Assembly: GCF_964275005.1 (NCBI RefSeq)
Contig: NC_092698.1
Location: 32,047,162 to 32,111,161, forward strand
DNA length: 64,000 nucleotides
Direction of reading: 5' to 3'
Source: Diadema setosum
Taxonomy: Eukaryota; Echinodermata; Echinoidea; Diadematoida; Diadematidae
Shown here one piece after another: positions 37,631 to 49,600 of this stretch; position 1 is the first letter of the stretch, and every line of letters starts with the position of its first letter. The translations under genes were made by a program, and so were the position numbers. The notes beneath the pieces were generated by a model. That model did no database searches. It was not told the origin of the DNA and saw only the letters and a list, made by a program, of their open reading frames with translations.

Positions 37631-40600
37631 CTGGATTCATATCACCATGGAAGGAAGAAGAGGAGATCAATATCACTGAATTGGAACCCACACAATGCCT
37701 CAGACAGATATGGTTATTATTTCACCAATAAACAATGCCTCCAGCCCCAATCTAGTTGGAGGATTACAACAAACAAAAATATCGTGGTCTTACACAGAAC
37801 TGCACACTAACCCATTTTTCCTACTGGTCCGACTTGTCCCTGTCAGACCAGTACATATCCAGTTTTTCTATTTCTTACTGATCAGGGCACGGTATCGTGA
37901 AAGTTGTCAGCCCTGACAAGTTATCAGTCTCTGACAGTTTAAGTAAAATCCTTGGTTTTGATTGGCTGAGAAGCTCTGGTCACTGACTGTTACTATGGTG
38001 ATCGCCGGAGACTGACAACTTGTCAGGGCTGACAACTTTCATGAAACGGTGCCCTGGACCAAAAATTTACTGGTACTGTTCTGTTTTTTTCGACTGACCC
38101 CGACAATGTTATCTTTTCTTAGTGGTCATGTCAGACCAGTAAATTTGGCAATTCCTGAAAAGTTGCTGGCCCGACAGTGATTTTCACCAGTCCAGTTTTT
38201 GAGCAACAGTATGTCATAACCTTACTGAAGCAGTACAAATTTGCTGGGTATCTGCTTTTCTATGAGACAAACAAAAACAGCAGAAGAGTAAACACTCTGT
38301 TATTTGATTGTGCATTGTACAGTATGCCATGTACAGAAACATCAGGCTTTGTGTGTTGTGATTAAAGTACATATGCATGAAACACATGTATCAAAAATTC
38401 AAATGCAATCATCAGTATGGGTTGCATTATGCACTTGACATCTCTTAAAGTGGTCAATACCTCTGAACACTGGATGAAGATGGGAGGAGATCCAGGTTAA
38501 CTTTCCCTCCATCTTCTGTCTTGAGGTAGGCAAACTCTTCAAGGATGTCAATGTCTGAATGAAGCTGATGTAAGAAACTGACTTTCACAGCACACTAAAA
38601 AAATACTTCTTGCAGCAAGGCAGTTTAGAGGTGTTATAATTGATAAAATAACCTTAAGGATAGCAAAAGAAAAATCCTTCTTTGAACACATACAACATTC
38701 ATGAGAATGCACTTTCTAAGTAAACAATATAGGCATTTTTTTTTCTAGCCCTGTCAGAGGACTTCTCTCACACGATAACAAATCCAAGAAAAACCAAGGA
38801 GCGGTGTAATGTTCCAAATAAATTGACCTGGGATGAGTGCAGAACATTATGCCCCATAATTATTTTTGTGCCTTGGAATAGTTCAAAGAAACACACAGCT
38901 CGTGTGTTCCCCTCATTAATTTAAAATGATATTCTAGTCATGCAATACCTAAATATGATCTTGTTAAAGACATGAAGAAATAAGTTTACCCGTGTAGCTA
39001 CCACACCATTTTTGGCAAGTATCACAGCTCCTCCATATCCTCCTTTAGTGACAAGAGAATTAATAAAAGGATACTGATGATGTAACTGAGAAAAGAGTGG
39101 TAGGAGAAGTGGCCCCTCTTGCGGATTCTGCGGATGGCCTCATTAAAGAGGAGCTCATCTCGTGGCCAGTAGTACTGCATCAGAACAATCAGGTGACCAA
39201 GGCCTGTGTCATTAGAGTCGGCGCGATGCAGGACACGCTTCTGGAATTTCAAATATCATTGCAACAGTGAGCCAGAGCAGTATAAGGACTTTATTTCCCA
39301 GCAGTTGCTTCAGCAGACTATATGAAATACATTTGAGCAAGCCATTGACCTCATGCAATCATTCTGCTTTATCACTGATATCTTTTATGGTGTTGTTTTG
39401 GTTTTCTTTTACATGCCATGATTTCAAGTACACGATAGCTGTTCAGCTGAAATAAAGTATTTGCAATTCTCTTCAAAGATATTGAAATTTAAGACTGACA
39501 ATCTGTTTGGTCAACAGAATGAATATTACCATAAATTTCATTCATACCCTTCTGAAATGAATAAACACAGAAAAAAATAACTAGAAATGTCGCTTTGGCG
39601 ACTGGTATGCCTCCGCCATAATGCATATTTTCCCAATGGGTCTAGATAGTACATGTGGACACTGTGTGATTACATTTTCACAAAATTAGCAAAATACTGG
39701 AATGACAAGTTTGTCACAAATGTGTTGAATGTTCACCTTCCTTGATGTAGGTTTAATTGGATGAATAAGAGAGCATGTATCTAGGGATTTAAGGACTTTA
39801 ACTTGACTTTGACCCATTCATACATTTAGGCATTGAGTAATTTTCAAGGTACAGGTGTGGAGAAAAAGTGAAATTTCTGAATTGAATAGTAAATTGTTAC
39901 CATTTTCATCTGGCCCTTGACCCTAAAATTCATAAGATAATTACTTTCAGGTAGAACATGCATAATATGTACTAAGTTTCAAGGTAACTTGAGCCACTTC
40001 CGAGATATGGAGGAAAAAGTTAGTTCAGCACTTTCACTTGATCTTTGACCTTTTGACCTTTGTGGCAAAAAGAAAAAAAAAAAAAACTTTCCAGAGAATT
40101 CCTATTAGGTTACACACGCATACACCAAGTGTAAAAAAATAACCCTGCTGGCATTGCATAAATATGAGGGTAATAGTAAAATTTTGAAGTCTTGCACTTG
40201 ACCTTTGACCCCTGACCTTTGACCCCATGAACTCTACATTCTCTAGATAATCACTTCTAGTCAGTACATGTATATATTATGTTCCATGAAGATACCTTGA
40301 ACAATTTTCCAAGGTACGGAGAAAAAAAAGAAGTTTTAATATTTTTACTTGACCTTTTGACCTTTGACCTTTGACCTCATGACCCAAACTTTCACCAGAG
40401 AATCTTAATTGGGTAATACATGTATACACTAAGTTTCAAGAAAATATCTTCAGGCATTCAATAGATATGGTGGAAATAGTGAAATTTTATGTATTTGACC
40501 TTGACCTTTTGACCTTTGACCTAGAGCATGTGCACCCAAAAGTTGATAGGCACAACTTCACCCCCTAATACACATACATGCCAAGTTTCATTAGGATACC

Positions 40601-43600
40601 TCAACAGGTTTCGATAGTTACCTTGTCCACAAAATTCATTACGGACGGACGGACGGACGGACGGACGGACAACCTGAAAACATAATGCCTCCGGCACCAC
40701 TTCGTGGCGGAGGCATAATAAAAACAACAGCCTTTGCATCATTTTCATATCCCTCTCAAGAGGCTGATTAAAAAAAAAAACACACACACAAACAGAAGAC
40801 TCTGCAGTGGAGAGCAATGATGAATGAGAGAACGAACCTTAAAAGCCAAGAGTACCAGCTGGATGCAATACGGCAGAAGTGTAGTGGGTGTGGCAGGTAT
40901 GATGTGAAGCACCCTGCCTGACCTGCCTCCTGCGGCAAAGGAGCCCTCGCTCACGATGCCTCTGTTTGAGTTCCCCTCGATGTAATTTTCTCTGAGGATG
41001 CTGATGGCTTCCAGGATGGAGTCACAGGCATCCTGATGAGCAAAATGAACAGAAACTAAGGAATTAAGTTTGGATTATCACTTCCAACAGCACTGTACCT
41101 ACGAACCCAAATCTATTTCCTACACATACAACATCCCCAGCTGTTGTTGATACCTTTAGATGTTGGGGGGGGGGGTGGTTTCATATCAAAGAAAAACTGA
41201 ATTTTTCAACTTCTCTGTCCTTCAGTCTGAGTGGCAGAATACAAACAAGTGAAATTGTAAAGCCTACAAGGAAAAAGAAGGAAAGAAATACGTTTATGTA
41301 TGAAATCAAATAGGGATTAATGAGTCACTGTTGTGGTTCCTGTTCAATAAGGAACTAAGAGTCCATTTCATGACAAGGTCTGTAATTATTCTACGATACA
41401 ATAATTGCTGCTATTATGGCATTAGTTACTAACCAGCTGCTTAGTTGTGAGGATCCAAGTTGTTACCACAGAAGTGACAATTGCTGCACCCTACATTTAA
41501 TGCAAATATCTTTGTGAGCCCATGATAATAGGGCACACATTTAAAAGTCCAGGGTGACTGTGAAAGATTTTACGTATCCTTCAGTACATACAAATGGGAC
41601 ATGCTAATCAACTGACACTCAATGATGTAAGAGACCAAAAGAACTCTTACTACCCTTGCTTATAAAGTATGCAGATAAGCCCACAAGAAACACTCCATCT
41701 ACAGACAAAGAACATATTTCATACAATGCAGAACATGTAGAGATAATATAGAGTTGTCATAATAAAATCAATATAATCTTAAATCAATATACATTATAAT
41801 TGTATTGTATATGAAAACAGAAATACCTTGCCACAAATAAATCAAAGATGAACATGACATGTGAAAAGTTATAAGCAAAACAGAATTAATTTGGCCTGTG
41901 CAAGACAGTTTGCTACAGTAAGTTTTGCATCACTTTAAGTTCCTTTCTTGGGCATATGGCATCCAAAACTCACAGAGAGTCTGCTCATGGAGTGGTAAAT
42001 GCTTGCTAGCTGCACCAGGGTCTTAATGCGCTCCTGGTTGTCAAGGGGTGTGTCATCATGCTCTGTCTTCAATCTTGTCTGCAACATGGCAACTGCCTGC
42101 ACATTTTCACCCTGGAAACATGGAAAAGAGTCAGCTAGTGAGCTGTGCAGAATAGGCTGCCATGTCATGTTGGAGACCAGATAAAACACTTTTGGTTAGG
42201 TACCTGCACAGCATGCAATACACATGTAGGACAAGGTTTTTACAAATGCAGTTGATTAACATATATATTTTCTATCAGATAAATATTTCATTAGTGGAAA
42301 AGTGCAAAGAAAATGGGATTCCATCAGGATTCAAACCCGAGACCTCTGGATTGCTAGCCCGGTGCTCTACGGCTCTACCGACTGAGCTACAGAAAGCCCT
42401 AGTACAGTGTCCATCCCAGAAACCCTTAATTCTCAATGCTCGTAATCCAGAGGTCTCGGGTTCGGAATCCCGATGGAATCCCATTTTCTTTGCTCATTTT
42501 TCACTAATTGATTATATTCCTTTCTGGTAAGTTTCCCTCTTGTTTGTGTTTGTTACATACTCAAAAAGCTGCATCACTTAGGTGATACCTCACATTTATC
42601 CCCAAGTTGAATTATCCTTCGGGTTTATGTTAGGTTTAAGTGTGTGCATGTGTGTCACACATACACATACATACACACACACACACACACTGCTATAGCT
42701 TTGACCACACGAGCATTGAGAATTAAGGGTTTCTGGGACAGACACTATACTAGGGCTTTCTATAGCTTAGTCGGTAGGGCACCCAGATAAATATTTCATT
42801 ATCACTGAAAGGAAAGTAGGATTACACTCAGAGGCCCAAATTCTCAAAGCTGGAATAACTATTCCGCGGAATAGTTATTCCGGGGAATAAGTTATTCCAC
42901 CTTTGAGAATAGATTCCGGGGAATAAATCACGTCATTTTACATCAGGACGGCCTGATTTGCATAAGAGGCGTAATAAATCGGCGGAATAAGCGGTGTAAT
43001 AAAGTAATTCCACCTTTGAGAATTTGGGCCTTCGTATCAACTTTGCTACTTGTTTAGAGATGATTTCTGCACATTGAATTCATCCTTTGTGACTTGTATC
43101 TCCATTTTGGTCAACAAAGAATAACACAGTAATGACATTTTTATCAGTGCAAATCCTTCGATTTCAAGAGCTTCATGTCCTTAATTAAAGAAGTATTAAA
43201 GAAAAATCAATCTCCCTATGTTCATAAAGTAGTGAGTAGTGAGCGCCTGTGTGGTAGCCCTCTCGTCTCTCTCCTCAACTTTCTACTATTTTATGGATTT
43301 TTGACATCTGCAATATACAAATCAACTACTACTGAATTTATTTGTGACTCTGGAATCAGCAGGACCAACTTGAAGCTGAGTGAAGCTAGAGCTGCACTGG
43401 TGTAAGTGATTGCAGTTTTTGGACTTGACTTCTATCTTGTGTGAGCCCTACACAGCCATGTTCTTCTTGTCTCTCACCTGTTCACTCAAGCCTAAAAGTC
43501 TCCCATTGTTTTGGTAAAGAAGCTGAACAGTTCACAATGGAGTTGACCAAGCAGATAGCTATTGTGTGCTTTGTACTTCTTGCAAAAGGAATTTGCCTCG

Positions 43601-46600
43601 GTGTACAGCACAACTGCTACAGCTTTCTTGCACAGCCCAGGTGGAAATTTAACACACTCAAGTACTGTGGACCACGTGTTAGCTATTATGCCAACACAGT
43701 AGCAACTTATCAACTGCTCCTTATGAGATCTGGGGATGTTAGTCCCAATCCTGGACCTTTGGACTCTGCGACTGCCTTGAACGTGTACTCCTCTTCTCAA
43801 CGAAATCAGCATGTTTCATATGATTCGACCGCTCTCCGAAACATGAATCCTTCTGTTTGTCATGGTCCATCGTACAGACTTAGGAAGGAAGTCCATGAAC
43901 GCATCAAGCTTCTGGGTATAAGGAGAAGGCGGACGCATCGAGGAAGAAGGGCAATCGGGCGTAAATCTCAACATGTTGAAAGTGCAGTCTCCTATCCCTC
44001 CTTCAGTGACGTTTTGCCTCGGGTAACAAGCCAAAGGCAAGGTGTAAAATCTTTTTGTCATCTGAAGAAAGTATCTGCTGATCAAAACATCTCTCTCTGC
44101 ATGATGAACGCAAGGTCGCTGAAAAACAAAACATCTGACTTTGTTGACTTTGTGATTGACAACGATCTAGATATCGTTGGTGTTTGTGAGACATGGCTCA
44201 CCACTGATGATGCAGCTCCCATTGCAGATCTTACTCCAAGAGGATTTTCATTCAAGCACATACCAAGAAAGGGTAAAAGAGGTGGAGGTGTTGCACTTCT
44301 CTACAGAAGCAATCTTGACATCAAGATGATTTCTTCAACTAATGTGAAATCTTTTGAGGTAATTCAAGTGGATATCTGTCAATCCTCTAAAACTGTACAT
44401 TTGATTGTGGTATACAGACCTCCAAACTGTAATGCTTTAAAGGAGTTTCTAGAGGAGTTTTCCAATCTTCTGGATGAACAACTCTTTCGATCTTCAAGCC
44501 TTGTTATCTGTGGAGACTTTAACATCCAGATGGACTCTCTCAATGCAAACACTCACAGCTTCTCGGAAATTCTGTCAGCATATAATCTAAAGCAACATGT
44601 AAATGAGCCAACCCACATCCGAGGACACACTCTAGACTTGCTTATCACCCGTTCAGATGACGCAGCAACAATATCTGATGTTTCTGTCAATCATGGTATA
44701 TCTGATCATATGGCAATCATGTGCAATCTGAACATTCCAAAGTGTGCTGCCAAAAGACAACTTATCATGTCTCGGAACATTAAGGCGATAGACCATAACA
44801 AAATCTGCAGCGATCCAATAGTTCTCTTGCTGGATGACAAGTGTACTGCTGCTGAAAGCACTGAGGAAGCTGTTACTGCATATAACTCCACACTTTCTGC
44901 CATCCTGGATGATTATGCTCCCGTAAGACGTCGCTCTGTCGTAGTTCGCCCCATGACTCAATGGTACAGTGACGAAATATGACAAGAAAAGTTAGTTCAA
45001 AGGCAGTTGGAGAGGAAATGGAGATCATCTAAACTTGAGATCCATAGACAACTGTATTGCCAGCAACGACAGCGGGTTCAGGCCTCCATCCGTGCAGCTA
45101 AAGTAGCATATCACTCAAAGAAAATTGAAGACTGTGGGAAAGACTCTAGACAGCTATTTAAAGTTGCAAACAAACTCCTGAGCAGAAAGCAAACGTCCTC
45201 TCTTCCTCAGCATGAATCAAGCAAAGATTTGTCTGATCAATTCAGCAAATACTTCGTCAGTAAGATTATGGACATTCGTTCATCTCTTCCTGTTGTCCAT
45301 ATGACTGACTTCACTGTGAAGACCTCTGAATGCCTGGAATATCTTTCTCCCACATCTATTAATGAGATATCTGAGATCATACAGAAATCACCATGTACGT
45401 CTTGTGAGCTGGACCCAATGCCCTCCACTCTTCTGAAGAAATGTTTGCCTGCATTTGCTCCCTGCATTGCTAAAATAGTTAATCAGAGTTTTTCAACTGG
45501 CATCATCCCACCTGCCCTGAAGACAGCTCTGATTCGTCCAACCCTCAAGAAGCCCAGTTTAGACCCTGAAATCCTGCTGAACTATCGTCCTATATCCAAC
45601 TTACCTTACCTCAGTAAGATAATGGAACGTGTTGCTTTCTCACGGCTTCTTGCACATCTACAAGACAACAATCTCTTGGATTGCTTCCAGTCAGCGTATA
45701 GGCCTCATCATAGTGTTGAAACGCTTCTTGCAAACCTTAGTGATCATATTTTGAAGCAGATGGATCGCGGAAACATCACAGCGCTTGTCCTCCTTGACAT
45801 GTCTGCCGCCTTTGACACTGTCGATCACCGAATCCTCATTCAACGACTAAGATCTGTCGGGATCTCTGGTACTGCATTGCGCTGGTTCACTTCCTATCTA
45901 TCTGGCCGTCTCCAGTACGTCAAGATTGATGATTCAGCGTCAAAACCTGTAGCCACCGAGTTTGGAGTTCCACAAGGATCGGTTGGCGGCCCACTCCTCT
46001 TCTCACTCTATCTTCAGCCCATTAGTCAGATCATTCGGAAGCACAATGTTCATTATCACTGCTATGCTGATGACATTCAATTGTTTGTTTCCTTCCCGCC
46101 ATCTGAAACTATAGCAGCAACAGTGTTAAAACAACTTGAAATTTGTGTTGATGAAATCAAAGGTTGGATGAGCAAAAATCAACTAAAGTTGAACGACAAT
46201 AAAACAGAGTTACTGGTACTTGGGTCAAGACACATGCTGACAAAGGCTAACATGAAGAAGTGTCAATTGAGAATTGGTAACAGTGTTATTAACTCTTCTG
46301 AAAAGGCACGCAATCTTGGTGTTGTTTTTGATAGTACCATGTCCTTCAAATATCATGTTGCGTATGTATCACAATCTGTAAGGTTCCAATTGCGTAATCT
46401 TGGTTTTATTCGGAAATATCTCACTAAAACAGCAGCTGAACAGATTATACATGCTCTTATTTCCTCTCGAATAGATTATTGTAACTCTTTGTTTTTCGGC
46501 ATGTCACAACAACAAATTAACACTCTACAACGTCTTCAAAACTCTGCCGCAAGATTACTGACCTATAGTAGGAAAACTGCTCACATTACGCCAGTGTTAC

Positions 46601-49600
46601 GTTCTCTCCATTGGCTTCCTGTTGAAAAGCGAATTATTTTCAAAATTGCTCTTCTTGTGTATTATGTAGTTCACTCAACTGCACCTGAGTATCTCCAGAA
46701 TTCTTTATATTGTTATAACCCTCCTCGCAGACTTCGATCCTCTACTTCCTTTTCATTTCAGATACCTAAGGTTAAGCATTCATGGGGAACTCGTTCTTTC
46801 TCCCACATAGGACCTAAAGTTTGGAAAGATATCCCTGTCACTGTTCGCCAGTCATCCTCTGTGGAATCATTTAAATCATCCCTAAAAACATATCTGTTTA
46901 ACATGTTGTAGGAAACAAAACAAGAGTGAATATGTCACATAATTCCTTTTTCTCTCTTCCTCTCTCTTCTTTCTTTCTTTCTTCTCCTAACCTTAAGACT
47001 AAAAGCGCCATGAGCATCTTTTGATGGACTGTTGCGCTATAAAAGTATACACTATTATTATTATTATTATTATACTAACATATGATGTAATAATTGTAAA
47101 AACAGCAAAATGGTATTTGCCATTTAGCCATACAACATCAATTAAAATATTTTGCACTAGCTTACAGAATAAAAAAGGCAAATTCCTACACATTATAACT
47201 TCTGCAGTGTACCATATTCAGAAGAGAAAATCAGTCTACAAGTGTTCATGATCAATGTTCATGATCAGTGTTCTGGTACTATTTACTCACCAGGTACAGT
47301 AGTCTATCAGCCTGGAAACTGTTGAACCATAACCATGTCTCAGCTTTCCACCGACGCAACAACCAGTTAAAGTCTAGAAATATTCAGAAAGAGATAGTGA
47401 AAAGTACATTGACCTTCTTTTGTAACATTTCTTTTTCTTCTTTTCTTTATCTCTTTTTATTCGGGGGAGGGGGGGGGGGTGGGGGGGTATTTGTTTTGCT
47501 AAGGCCAAGCTCAAGCTCTAGACATAATATTACCTCCTCCTTATATATCTAAAGGTATAACAAACCAGGTGGTCTTTCGTTGAAGTGCATGTCCAGGTTT
47601 TTAAACACATTGCTACATGAATCTGTGTGTACATAAAGTTTGTATATACTGGCCACAGAATAGAGGGAGGTAGGGGTATCTCCCACCTAGAAATTTGTAC
47701 TTTTCACTTGTAGTCAGCTTCGTCACTTCAGCTTATTTGGGTCTAATATTCCTATAACAAGGCATTTGTCCACACTGCTTCTCTTACACTAAGGTATATC
47801 AAATAGCATGCGTCATCCTGTAGACACCTTGTGTAGAATGATCTTGACATAACCCGCAAGGGAAGGCAGGCAAAAGATATTCTCCACAAAAAGAAGACAT
47901 AGATGGAATTAATGGACATCACTGTACATACTTGCAAGTTCCCCAGTAAGCCAAATGCTTTATTCAAGACTATTACACCAATACTCCTTGAACCCTTTCC
48001 TTTTTTTCAGCTGGGGAGCTTTGATACGGGATTTGCTGGAAGGGATTCCTCACAGTAATTCCTGTAAAAGGCACAAATCAGATACCAAGACATGGAAATC
48101 ATACCTTTCTGAAAGAGCTCATTGGAGTTGAGGAGTTGCCAACAGTTCATGGCAGTGTGGAAGGCCTCGGTGATCTCAGATGAGAGGGCCGTCATTTCAG
48201 AAGGCTGGATGACATCACAGACATCATCAGACTCATCAGAATCCTTCCCACCAATCAAAGAAGATAACAACAGAACAGCATTTACTTGACAGTTTAGTAT
48301 ATGTTAGTCATCCCTGGCATCAGCTTCAAGTACCTATACTAATTCACTTGCTTTCAGATGTGTTCCAACTGCTAACTGTACAAGGCCCTCTTGGAATACT
48401 CACTGACCAACTGAAGACACTTTTCCTCCATATTCCAATGCTACAAAAGAATGTTTTTGACATACATTACTGTAGTGATTGAACAGGCTGACTGGAAAGA
48501 ACAGACATTGTGTCACCAAAACAACCTTATTAAGAAAGAAAGAAAAAGAAACTTTGAAAAGACAAAAAGACAAACAGACAGACAGGCAGGCAGACAATAA
48601 CATAGATGGATACATGTGAGTTAATTCTAGAGGGGGGAAAAGTTTGTATCATCAATGACAAGAAAGAATCAAGAGATAGAATGACACAGACAAATGTAAG
48701 AAAGAGATTTTTTTGTCAACACACATACTATGGTATCAAGGAGCACTTCAAAACTGAAATTGAGTTCTAAAATGACTGTTTTCCATGCATGATCTCAAAT
48801 CCAACAGAATATCATATGGTTGCCAAGCAACTCACAATGTGGCTGTCTTTGTCTGCCTCCAGCTTGCGCTTCTTGTGGGCGTGCTTGTGTTTCTTGGAGC
48901 GTTTCTTTGGCTCCAAGTCCTCCAGGAGCACCTGTGAGTGATGGTGGTGACTGGTGGCCCCTGGGAGGAGAAAAGCAGATACACAAGCATACTAGAGTCT
49001 CACTGTAGAACTGGTGTAGAGTGGTGTGACAGTGATGTGACAGATATAGTGGAGAGGGCATGATAATAAAATAAGTTATTGTTGTTGTTTTGCCTCCTCT
49101 GTGTTTGTTTTGTGTTTGTTTGTTTATTTATTTATTTATTTTTATAGAGACCTGTTGTACAGTTGCATGAAATATCAGGTTGTGGACTCTTTAAAGGCAT
49201 TGATTTACCATTTGCAGATGAAAAAAAGACTGACCTATACTGCTTCAAAATAGTTCTAATATGTGAGCTAGGGATAGAAACAACTAAGTGAAAATTTGAA
49301 TCAGTATGATTAATGTTAAGGATTGTTAAATATACAAAATATGAACAATAGTTATAATAACAAGGAAAAGTAGAAATTACGCGGTGCGTAATATATGTCC
49401 CCGCCGGAAGTAGCATTTTGCAGCAAAATGTACAATACAGGTCAAAAATCAAGGTCAAAGGTCAAAATTCTGTGTAGAAGTTTTGAAGCCCTCACCTAGT
49501 GCCATCACATAAAGCAAACGGAATCGAAATCGGGTTAGAAATGGCAAAGGGGTAGCATTTTGTAGCCAATGCACAATATAGGTCAAAAATCAAGGTCAAA

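Follow-up and report, generated by a model that had tools for sequence, protein, structure and literature searches.

Odon et al. (2013) reportedly described 2A-like sequences in apurinic/apyrimidinic (AP)-endonuclease retrotransposons without long terminal repeats (non-LTR retrotransposons), those of the purple sea urchin included, and linked them with elements that have a single open reading frame (ORF). Here we analyzed a stretch of 64,000 nucleotides from the sea urchin Diadema setosum (contig NC_092698.1, positions 32,047,162 to 32,111,161), hereafter the window, in which the ORF of a long interspersed nuclear element (LINE) opens with a 2A-like leader. An earlier note on this DNA had cited a sea-urchin precedent for N-terminal 2A sequences in AP-endonuclease LINEs, and this precedent holds, as a passage in PMC5972666 states that StopGo (2A) is already known in sea-urchin LINEs. 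The window element resembles them in being an AP-endonuclease LINE whose N-terminus carries a 2A-like motif, but it has Ser at position 14 (p14, with the final Pro of the core counted as p19), an extended block around YYxN and a separate signal-like start.

Two further systems are close. Like the 2A signals of the Strongylocentrotus purpuratus NOD-like receptors (NLRs) described in passages of PMC4981915, the window leader joins a hydrophobic N-terminus with an NPG/P core. The NLR leader, however, has 26 residues with overlapping signal and 2A and carries Glu14 in its tested form, whereas the window leader has 74 residues, separate parts and Ser14; it thus falls outside the SpNLR2A dual-leader type of about 26 residues with overlapping signal and 2A. 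With the viral 2A of the foot-and-mouth disease virus (FMDV) type, as presented in parts of PMC12846837, it shares G11, D12, V13, N16, P17, G18, P19 and a Leu-rich stretch ahead of the core, but Glu14 is replaced and conservation extends over about 33 residues here, in contrast to about 14 in the viral logo. Full FMDV 2A activity requires more than 30 residues, according to the same passages.

Leader and conserved block

The element and the parts of its leader are as follows.

43234-47073, + strand: LINE element, 3.84 kb, ends agreed by copies, single ORF, ATT-repeat tail
43537-43608, + strand: signal-peptide-like start, residues 1-24, MELTKQIAIVCFVLLAKGICLGVQ, from hydrophobicity against shuffles
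43660-43758, + strand: extended 2A-like block, residues 42-74, KYCGPRVSYYANTVATYQLLLMRSGDVSPNPGP, conserved in 26 representative leaders
43732-43758, + strand: 2A-like core GDVSPNPGP, residues 66-74, with release predicted between Gly73 and Pro74

The ORF starts with the ATG at 43537 (A at −3, G at +4), and translation of 43537-43758 gives residues 1-74 as MELTKQIAIVCFVLLAKGICLGVQHNCYSFLAQPRWKFNTLKYCGPRVSYYANTVATYQLLLMRSGDVSPNPGP, which confirms the earlier placement of GDVSPNPGP at residues 66-74, ahead of the endonuclease. We assume, with a probability of about 0.65, that codons 1-74 specify a secretory leader with a StopGo site at its end, which would yield a separate leader and an endonuclease–reverse transcriptase (EN-RT) protein.

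The block was delineated from 79 leaders (68 from the window and its own genome, 11 from public proteins), reduced to 45 representatives less than 80% identical over their last 30 residues. Of these, 26 match Y[YTSCH]x[NQ] 15–18 residues ahead of NPGP (type-i rows), 23 from this genome, window included, and three from public proteins, one of which belongs to the coral Montipora foliosa (P0008, GDVSLNPGP). All 26 share a block of about 33 residues, K(Y/F)xGxR(I/V)xYYxN...(A/S)TFQxxLLx(S/C)GD(I/V)x(P)NPGP. Columns that played no part in the choice of rows are conserved as well, i.e., I/V in 25/26, A/S in 26/26, F in 20/26 and L/I at p7 in 24/26; p10 is S/C in 21/26. The Leu-rich motif ending in (A/S/C)G that is typical upstream of 2A cores reads QLLLMRSG in the window. 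Conservation ends abruptly at the final Pro (P19), the next 12 columns having 3.27–3.75 bits of entropy. A block of this length that stops at the release point is the expected look of an element read in the exit tunnel, as judged from the alignment. A conserved glycosylation site at YYxN is not favored: the Asn stands in 25/26 rows, in a column partly used for selection, and the N-x-S/T sequon is completed in only 14/26.

In the FMDV 2A structure, according to passages of PMC12846837, D12 and N16 bind 28S rRNA, L7 wedges between bases and E14 stacks on A3640, and both D12A and N16A abolish activity. The counterparts of L7, D12 and N16 are among the residues conserved here, and the position of E14 varies. 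These correspondences bear on the idea that the block only arrests the nascent chain, pausing it without release and thereby aiding, for example, docking at the endoplasmic reticulum (ER) or the association of EN-RT with the RNA that encodes it. Conservation over some 33 residues and up to Pro19 only would suit any arrest peptide that acts in the tunnel; that D12 and N16, needed for release in FMDV 2A, are retained makes pure arrest very unlikely.

The hydrophobic, signal-like start proposed by the earlier note is borne out, since the best 9-residue Kyte–Doolittle mean of the window leader's N-terminus is 3.57, a value that none of 500 shuffled leader bodies reached. A hydrophobic stretch also lies close to the Met in each of the 19 type-i representatives that have one in the open frame (best 9-residue means of at least 2.41), with a shuffle fraction of at most 0.05 in 15/19, although the best of several Mets per leader was taken, which favors a positive result. 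In 7 of the 26 representatives the open frame has no Met. The distance from Met to Pro19 is 67–84 residues in 17/19, the exceptions being L016 with 90 (with the Met chosen) and P0008 with 107.

Under the StopGo reading, the block would occupy the exit tunnel with Gly73 in the P site and stall peptide transfer; most ribosomes would then let go of the 73-residue leader and resume at Pro74 to produce EN-RT. The ribosome tunnel holds about 30–40 residues of a growing chain, and so about half of the leader, including its hydrophobic start, should already be outside at the stall. The signal recognition particle would bind the exposed leader, which would travel to the ER as a separate peptide, and EN-RT with its basic motif would stay cytosolic, from where it could presumably reach the nucleus. 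Where skipping fails, EN-RT would be delivered into the ER and be lost to retrotransposition. A signal well upstream of the skip site would, if this is true, let a single ORF give rise to both a secreted and a nuclear protein.

The earlier note had suggested a different role for the signal, namely that it acts when skipping fails. In such a switch targeting is blocked by skipping, EN-RT enters the secretory pathway when skipping fails, and the function lies in this partition. The behavior was demonstrated for the 26-residue leader of an S. purpuratus NLR, as passages of PMC4981915 report, and some LINE proteins with short leaders would fit, e.g., P0065 with 24 residues through NPGP. In the window family, however, signal and 2A lie about 40 residues apart, and the signal should therefore be exposed before NPG/P is reached; furthermore, delivery of EN-RT to the ER would be of no evident use to a LINE. 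What holds for the NLR leaders is hence quite unlikely to apply here.

Constraint at the core and variation at p14

Across the genome, the pattern GGN-GAY-RTN-NNN-NNN-AAY-CCN-GGN-CC, which encodes G-D-[V/I/M]-x-x-N-P-G-P, has 337 matches and 0 in a backwards control, and chance occurrence of the motif is thereby rejected. Freeing the Asn codon (N16) gave 353 matches (+16, backwards control 23) and freeing the Pro codon (P17) gave 351 (+14, backwards control 15). The listing of N16-freed places covers 100, of which 98 carry Asn; the other two have Ile and Asp, the Asp (DPGP) site being a decayed relative. N16 and P17 are thus not replaced above background genome-wide and are constrained in this sense, while the codons vary, with 101 distinct 26-mers encoding 39 distinct octapeptides at the sites listed. 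Free variation at N-P-G-P, which the earlier note had named as an outcome that would refute its proposal, is hence not found for N16 and P17, two of the four residues.

The earlier note was also right that the usual Glu of DxExNPGP is replaced; relative to D(V/I)ExNPGP the window core has Ser at p14 and matches at all other positions. The replacement is, however, not peculiar to this copy. Glu is a minority among the 237 of 337 matches listed (100/110 GGT, 100/107 GGA and 37 of the remaining 120, with copies of one family counted separately), where p14 is E in 64, H in 56, Q in 37, N in 35, S in 22, D in 12, A in 6, K in 4 and L in 1, i.e., non-Glu at 173/237 and one of E/H/Q/N/S/D/A/K at 236/237. 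When each of the 101 distinct 26-mers is counted once, His leads with 25, ahead of E 20, N 17, Q 15, S 13, D 5, A 3, K 2 and L 1. Four diverged Diadema families (window, L014, L065 and L070) have Ser14, as do 7 of 15 public proteins with NPGP near the N-terminus. On a tree of the endonuclease region with 25 rows (L044 omitted as too short, four representatives swapped for a better copy, several rows fragments), a minimum of 15 p14 changes among seven states is required, with five for Ser versus the rest and four for Glu versus the rest. Pro15 accompanies Glu14 in 2/20 and other p14 residues in 59/81 of the 26-mers (Fisher 3e-7, uncorrected for descent), yet the pairing is weak within type-i rows (2/4 versus 16/22, by eye), so that coupling of p14 and p15 is only a hint.

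Changes at p14 can be compatible with activity, as passages of PMC12846837 give more than 95% activity for natural sites with His and 26% or 56% after a Glu-to-Gln change. Most likely, judging by these patterns, the Diadema sites are working StopGo sites with a relaxed p14, and the Ser14 form is predicted to be active. If the leaders skip, a 2A definition that requires Glu14 hides most LINE-borne sites in this genome; the sea-urchin database probe given in the consulted part of PMC4981915, D(V/I)ExNPGP, may have missed such non-Glu sites. The natural variants would then also be a ready panel to test which p14 residues the ribosome tunnel recognizes.

A literature search for non-Glu core strings returned no LINE paper by title or abstract, and in the literature searched we found no description of the block, of the genome-wide p14 spectrum or of a separate signal. 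The p14 spectrum and the lack of replacement at N16 and P17 above background look new, as does, on the alignment, the block in urchin LINE leaders. The separate signal-like start, distinct from 2A, is newly described, its signal role being predicted from hydrophobicity.

Relatives, selection and rival origins

A homology search of the 912.7-Mb own genome with residues 1-481 as query gave 112 matches. Seven copies of the window family were found besides the window copy, with identities to it of 98–99% (L009-L012), 93–94% (L013), 84–88% (L077) and 66–75% (L067). GDVSPNPGP is retained in L009-L013. L077 is broken into frames and has the core GDVGPNPGP, and the old copy L067 has stops and reads NSGP.

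For the wider group, 45 loci from this search, whose query includes the leader, were examined; they were selected without the motif pattern, and about 40 further sites were left out. An alignable leader is present in 37/45, and 36 of these 37 keep NPGP. The leaders outside the window family form seven families, all with G-D-(V/I)-x-x-N-P-G-P and with four states at p14.

Family L014: core GDVSPNPGP
Family L016-L028 and kin: core GDVEINPGP (one GDIEINPGP)
Family L065: core GDVSTNPGP
Family L070: core GDVSPNPGP
Family L079/L080/L083: core GDVHPNPGP
Family L081: core GDINPNPGP
Family L082: core GDIHPNPGP

The eight loci without an alignable leader are L015, which is truncated yet reads DVSPNPGP, L062 and L064 with a frameshift at the core, and L066, L072, L073, L076 and L078, where no leader is shown. 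In small stretches inspected at eight of these further sites, L087-L090, L091 and L092 have no leader, L093 has an NPGP remnant in a broken frame, and the stretch of L094 ends before NPGP in the same kind of leader; the pattern listing gives GDIEANPGP at C22:3250938 for L094 and, for L087, GDINPNPGP at 936 bases 5' of the endonuclease match. The pattern search added 30 loci, 19 of which have a YYxN-type leader.

Selection on the leader was compared by the ratio of nonsynonymous to synonymous change (dN/dS). L048 versus L046/L050 gave about 0.18 before the block, with synonymous change near saturation. Closer pairs, with few changes each, were mixed: L040/L082 gave 0.45 and L068 versus the L017 family 0.41–0.50, and for L044 versus L079 and L080 the ratio was 0.63 and 0.54 over the leader without the core and about 0.2 inside the block. 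These values suggest to us that the block is under purifying selection; for the remainder of the leader the evidence is weaker.

Several observations weigh against a working StopGo leader. The type-i rows were selected on the YYxN pattern itself, and the pattern-fetched leaders were conditioned on GD..NPGP. NPGP ahead of the endonuclease is absent in 34 of 43 distinct public relatives (from 165 proteins, taken with a match to the endonuclease start and at least 60 residues before it, near-duplicates removed), and 105 of 120 public proteins from a first search have no NPGP in their first 300 residues. Several NPGP-less public ORFs seem, by eye, to begin in the post-2A region, which may reflect either loss of the leader or the start chosen by the gene caller. 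The within-family leader dN/dS is 0.29–1.0 depending on the cut, on few changes, and not clearly low; L033/L039 gave 1.53 on few changes, and L044 versus L079 and L080 gave 2.26 and 1.32 before the block, again on few changes. RNA-virus 2A has almost exclusively Glu at p14, according to passages of PMC12846837. Finally, a part of PMC2885027 reports an iflavirus MDNPNPGP site, which differs at p12–p14, as inactive.

The viral preference for Glu and the within-family ratio would suit a degenerate 2A, in which an ancestor with Glu14 was active, recoding has gone from the Ser14 copies and what remains is a vestigial leader attached to EN-RT. Decay does occur, as in the NSGP of L067, the GDVGPNPGP of L077 and the one listed DPGP site. 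A relic would, however, be expected to lose NPGP. Here N16 and P17 are at background while p14, mostly polar, changes repeatedly on the tree, and Ser14 recurs in diverged families and in public proteins. We consider loss of activity an unlikely account of the leader, and a decayed Glu unlikely as the explanation of Ser14.

Going beyond the StopGo reading itself, we may tentatively speculate that these leaders form a distinct class of urchin LINE StopGo. This class would combine a tunnel block about 33 residues long with a p14 open to several polar residues, often next to Pro15, and would yield two differently addressed proteins, a secreted or ER-resident leader and a cytosolic or nuclear EN-RT, with no targeting switch. 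The leader would replace the missing ORF1 and perhaps dock the LINE ribonucleoprotein at the ER. In a leader-only protein search, none of the 10 candidates had an E value up to 10.

Element anatomy and other 2A-like sites

Downstream of the leader the element contains the following parts.

43759-44109, + strand: post-2A linker, contains the basic motif RRRRTHRGRR
44110-44709, + strand: AP-type endonuclease domain, residues 192-391 (Pfam PF03372, E 2.4e-15; PF14529, E 2.5e-11)
44980-44982, + strand: in-frame TGA, splits the window copy between endonuclease and reverse transcriptase
45556-46323, + strand: reverse transcriptase domain RVT_1 (Pfam PF00078, E 6.9e-36)

These Pfam matches bear out the AP-endonuclease LINE identity given by the earlier note; both domains and a repeat tail of a non-LTR retrotransposon are present, interrupted in the window copy by the TGA. 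L009, L010 and L011 are open across the TGA site (1160, 1079 and 1030 amino acids from stop to stop, respectively), from which it follows that open copies of the family exist. The basic motif RRRRTHRGRR (residues 129-138, 43921-43950), with counterparts by eye in several related LINEs, is a possible nuclear-entry or RNA-binding segment.

The element ends follow from blastn of window positions 40000-49000 against the other copies. Matches begin at 43229-43238 in L009-L013 and stop at 47072-47073 in L009, L010, L011 and L013, the compared sequence of L012 falling short of the 3' end; the ATT-repeat tail lies near 47052-47073. The 5' untranslated region of 303 nt is too small for any ORF1 and holds two short upstream ORFs (window 43458-43517, 19 codons, and 43293-43304, three codons).

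Other 2A-like sites occur in different surroundings. Glu14, the canonical residue, also occurs at sites that look host-like, such as L047:1297-2370, a short open stretch with GDIESNPGP about 0.4 kb upstream of a Death-domain ORF (PF00531, E 1.5e-8). This may be an immune-type gene of the host whose first exon is 2A-like, comparable to the S. purpuratus NLRs. Among the matches listed, eight GDVESNPGP sites lie on G000:C3 (2.85–4.05 Mb, 14.92 Mb and 21.33–21.44 Mb), four of them within 110 kb; L051, L053 and L056 on G000:C3 are 76–80% alike in DNA and encode a short stretch starting MD(V/I)L.VGVER, followed by stops. The GDVESNPGP sites may mark the first exons of host genes that form a clustered family. 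In L030 and L037, a PHD-like zinc finger (E 0.0015 and 5.4e-5, respectively, neither passing the Pfam cut-off) comes immediately after NPGP, and in L030 the endonuclease follows; this would be a second type of LINE opening with a 2A-like sequence. A third upstream context, (D/N)(L/I)TI(F/Y)(M/V)D(I/V)xxNPGP without Gly at p11, is found in the public LINE-type proteins P0007, P0020, P0031 and P0134. Just 5' of the window LINE lie several inverted repeats (42298-42860 and 43003-43031) with arms of 25–72 nt that are 91–93% complementary, perhaps small DNA elements.

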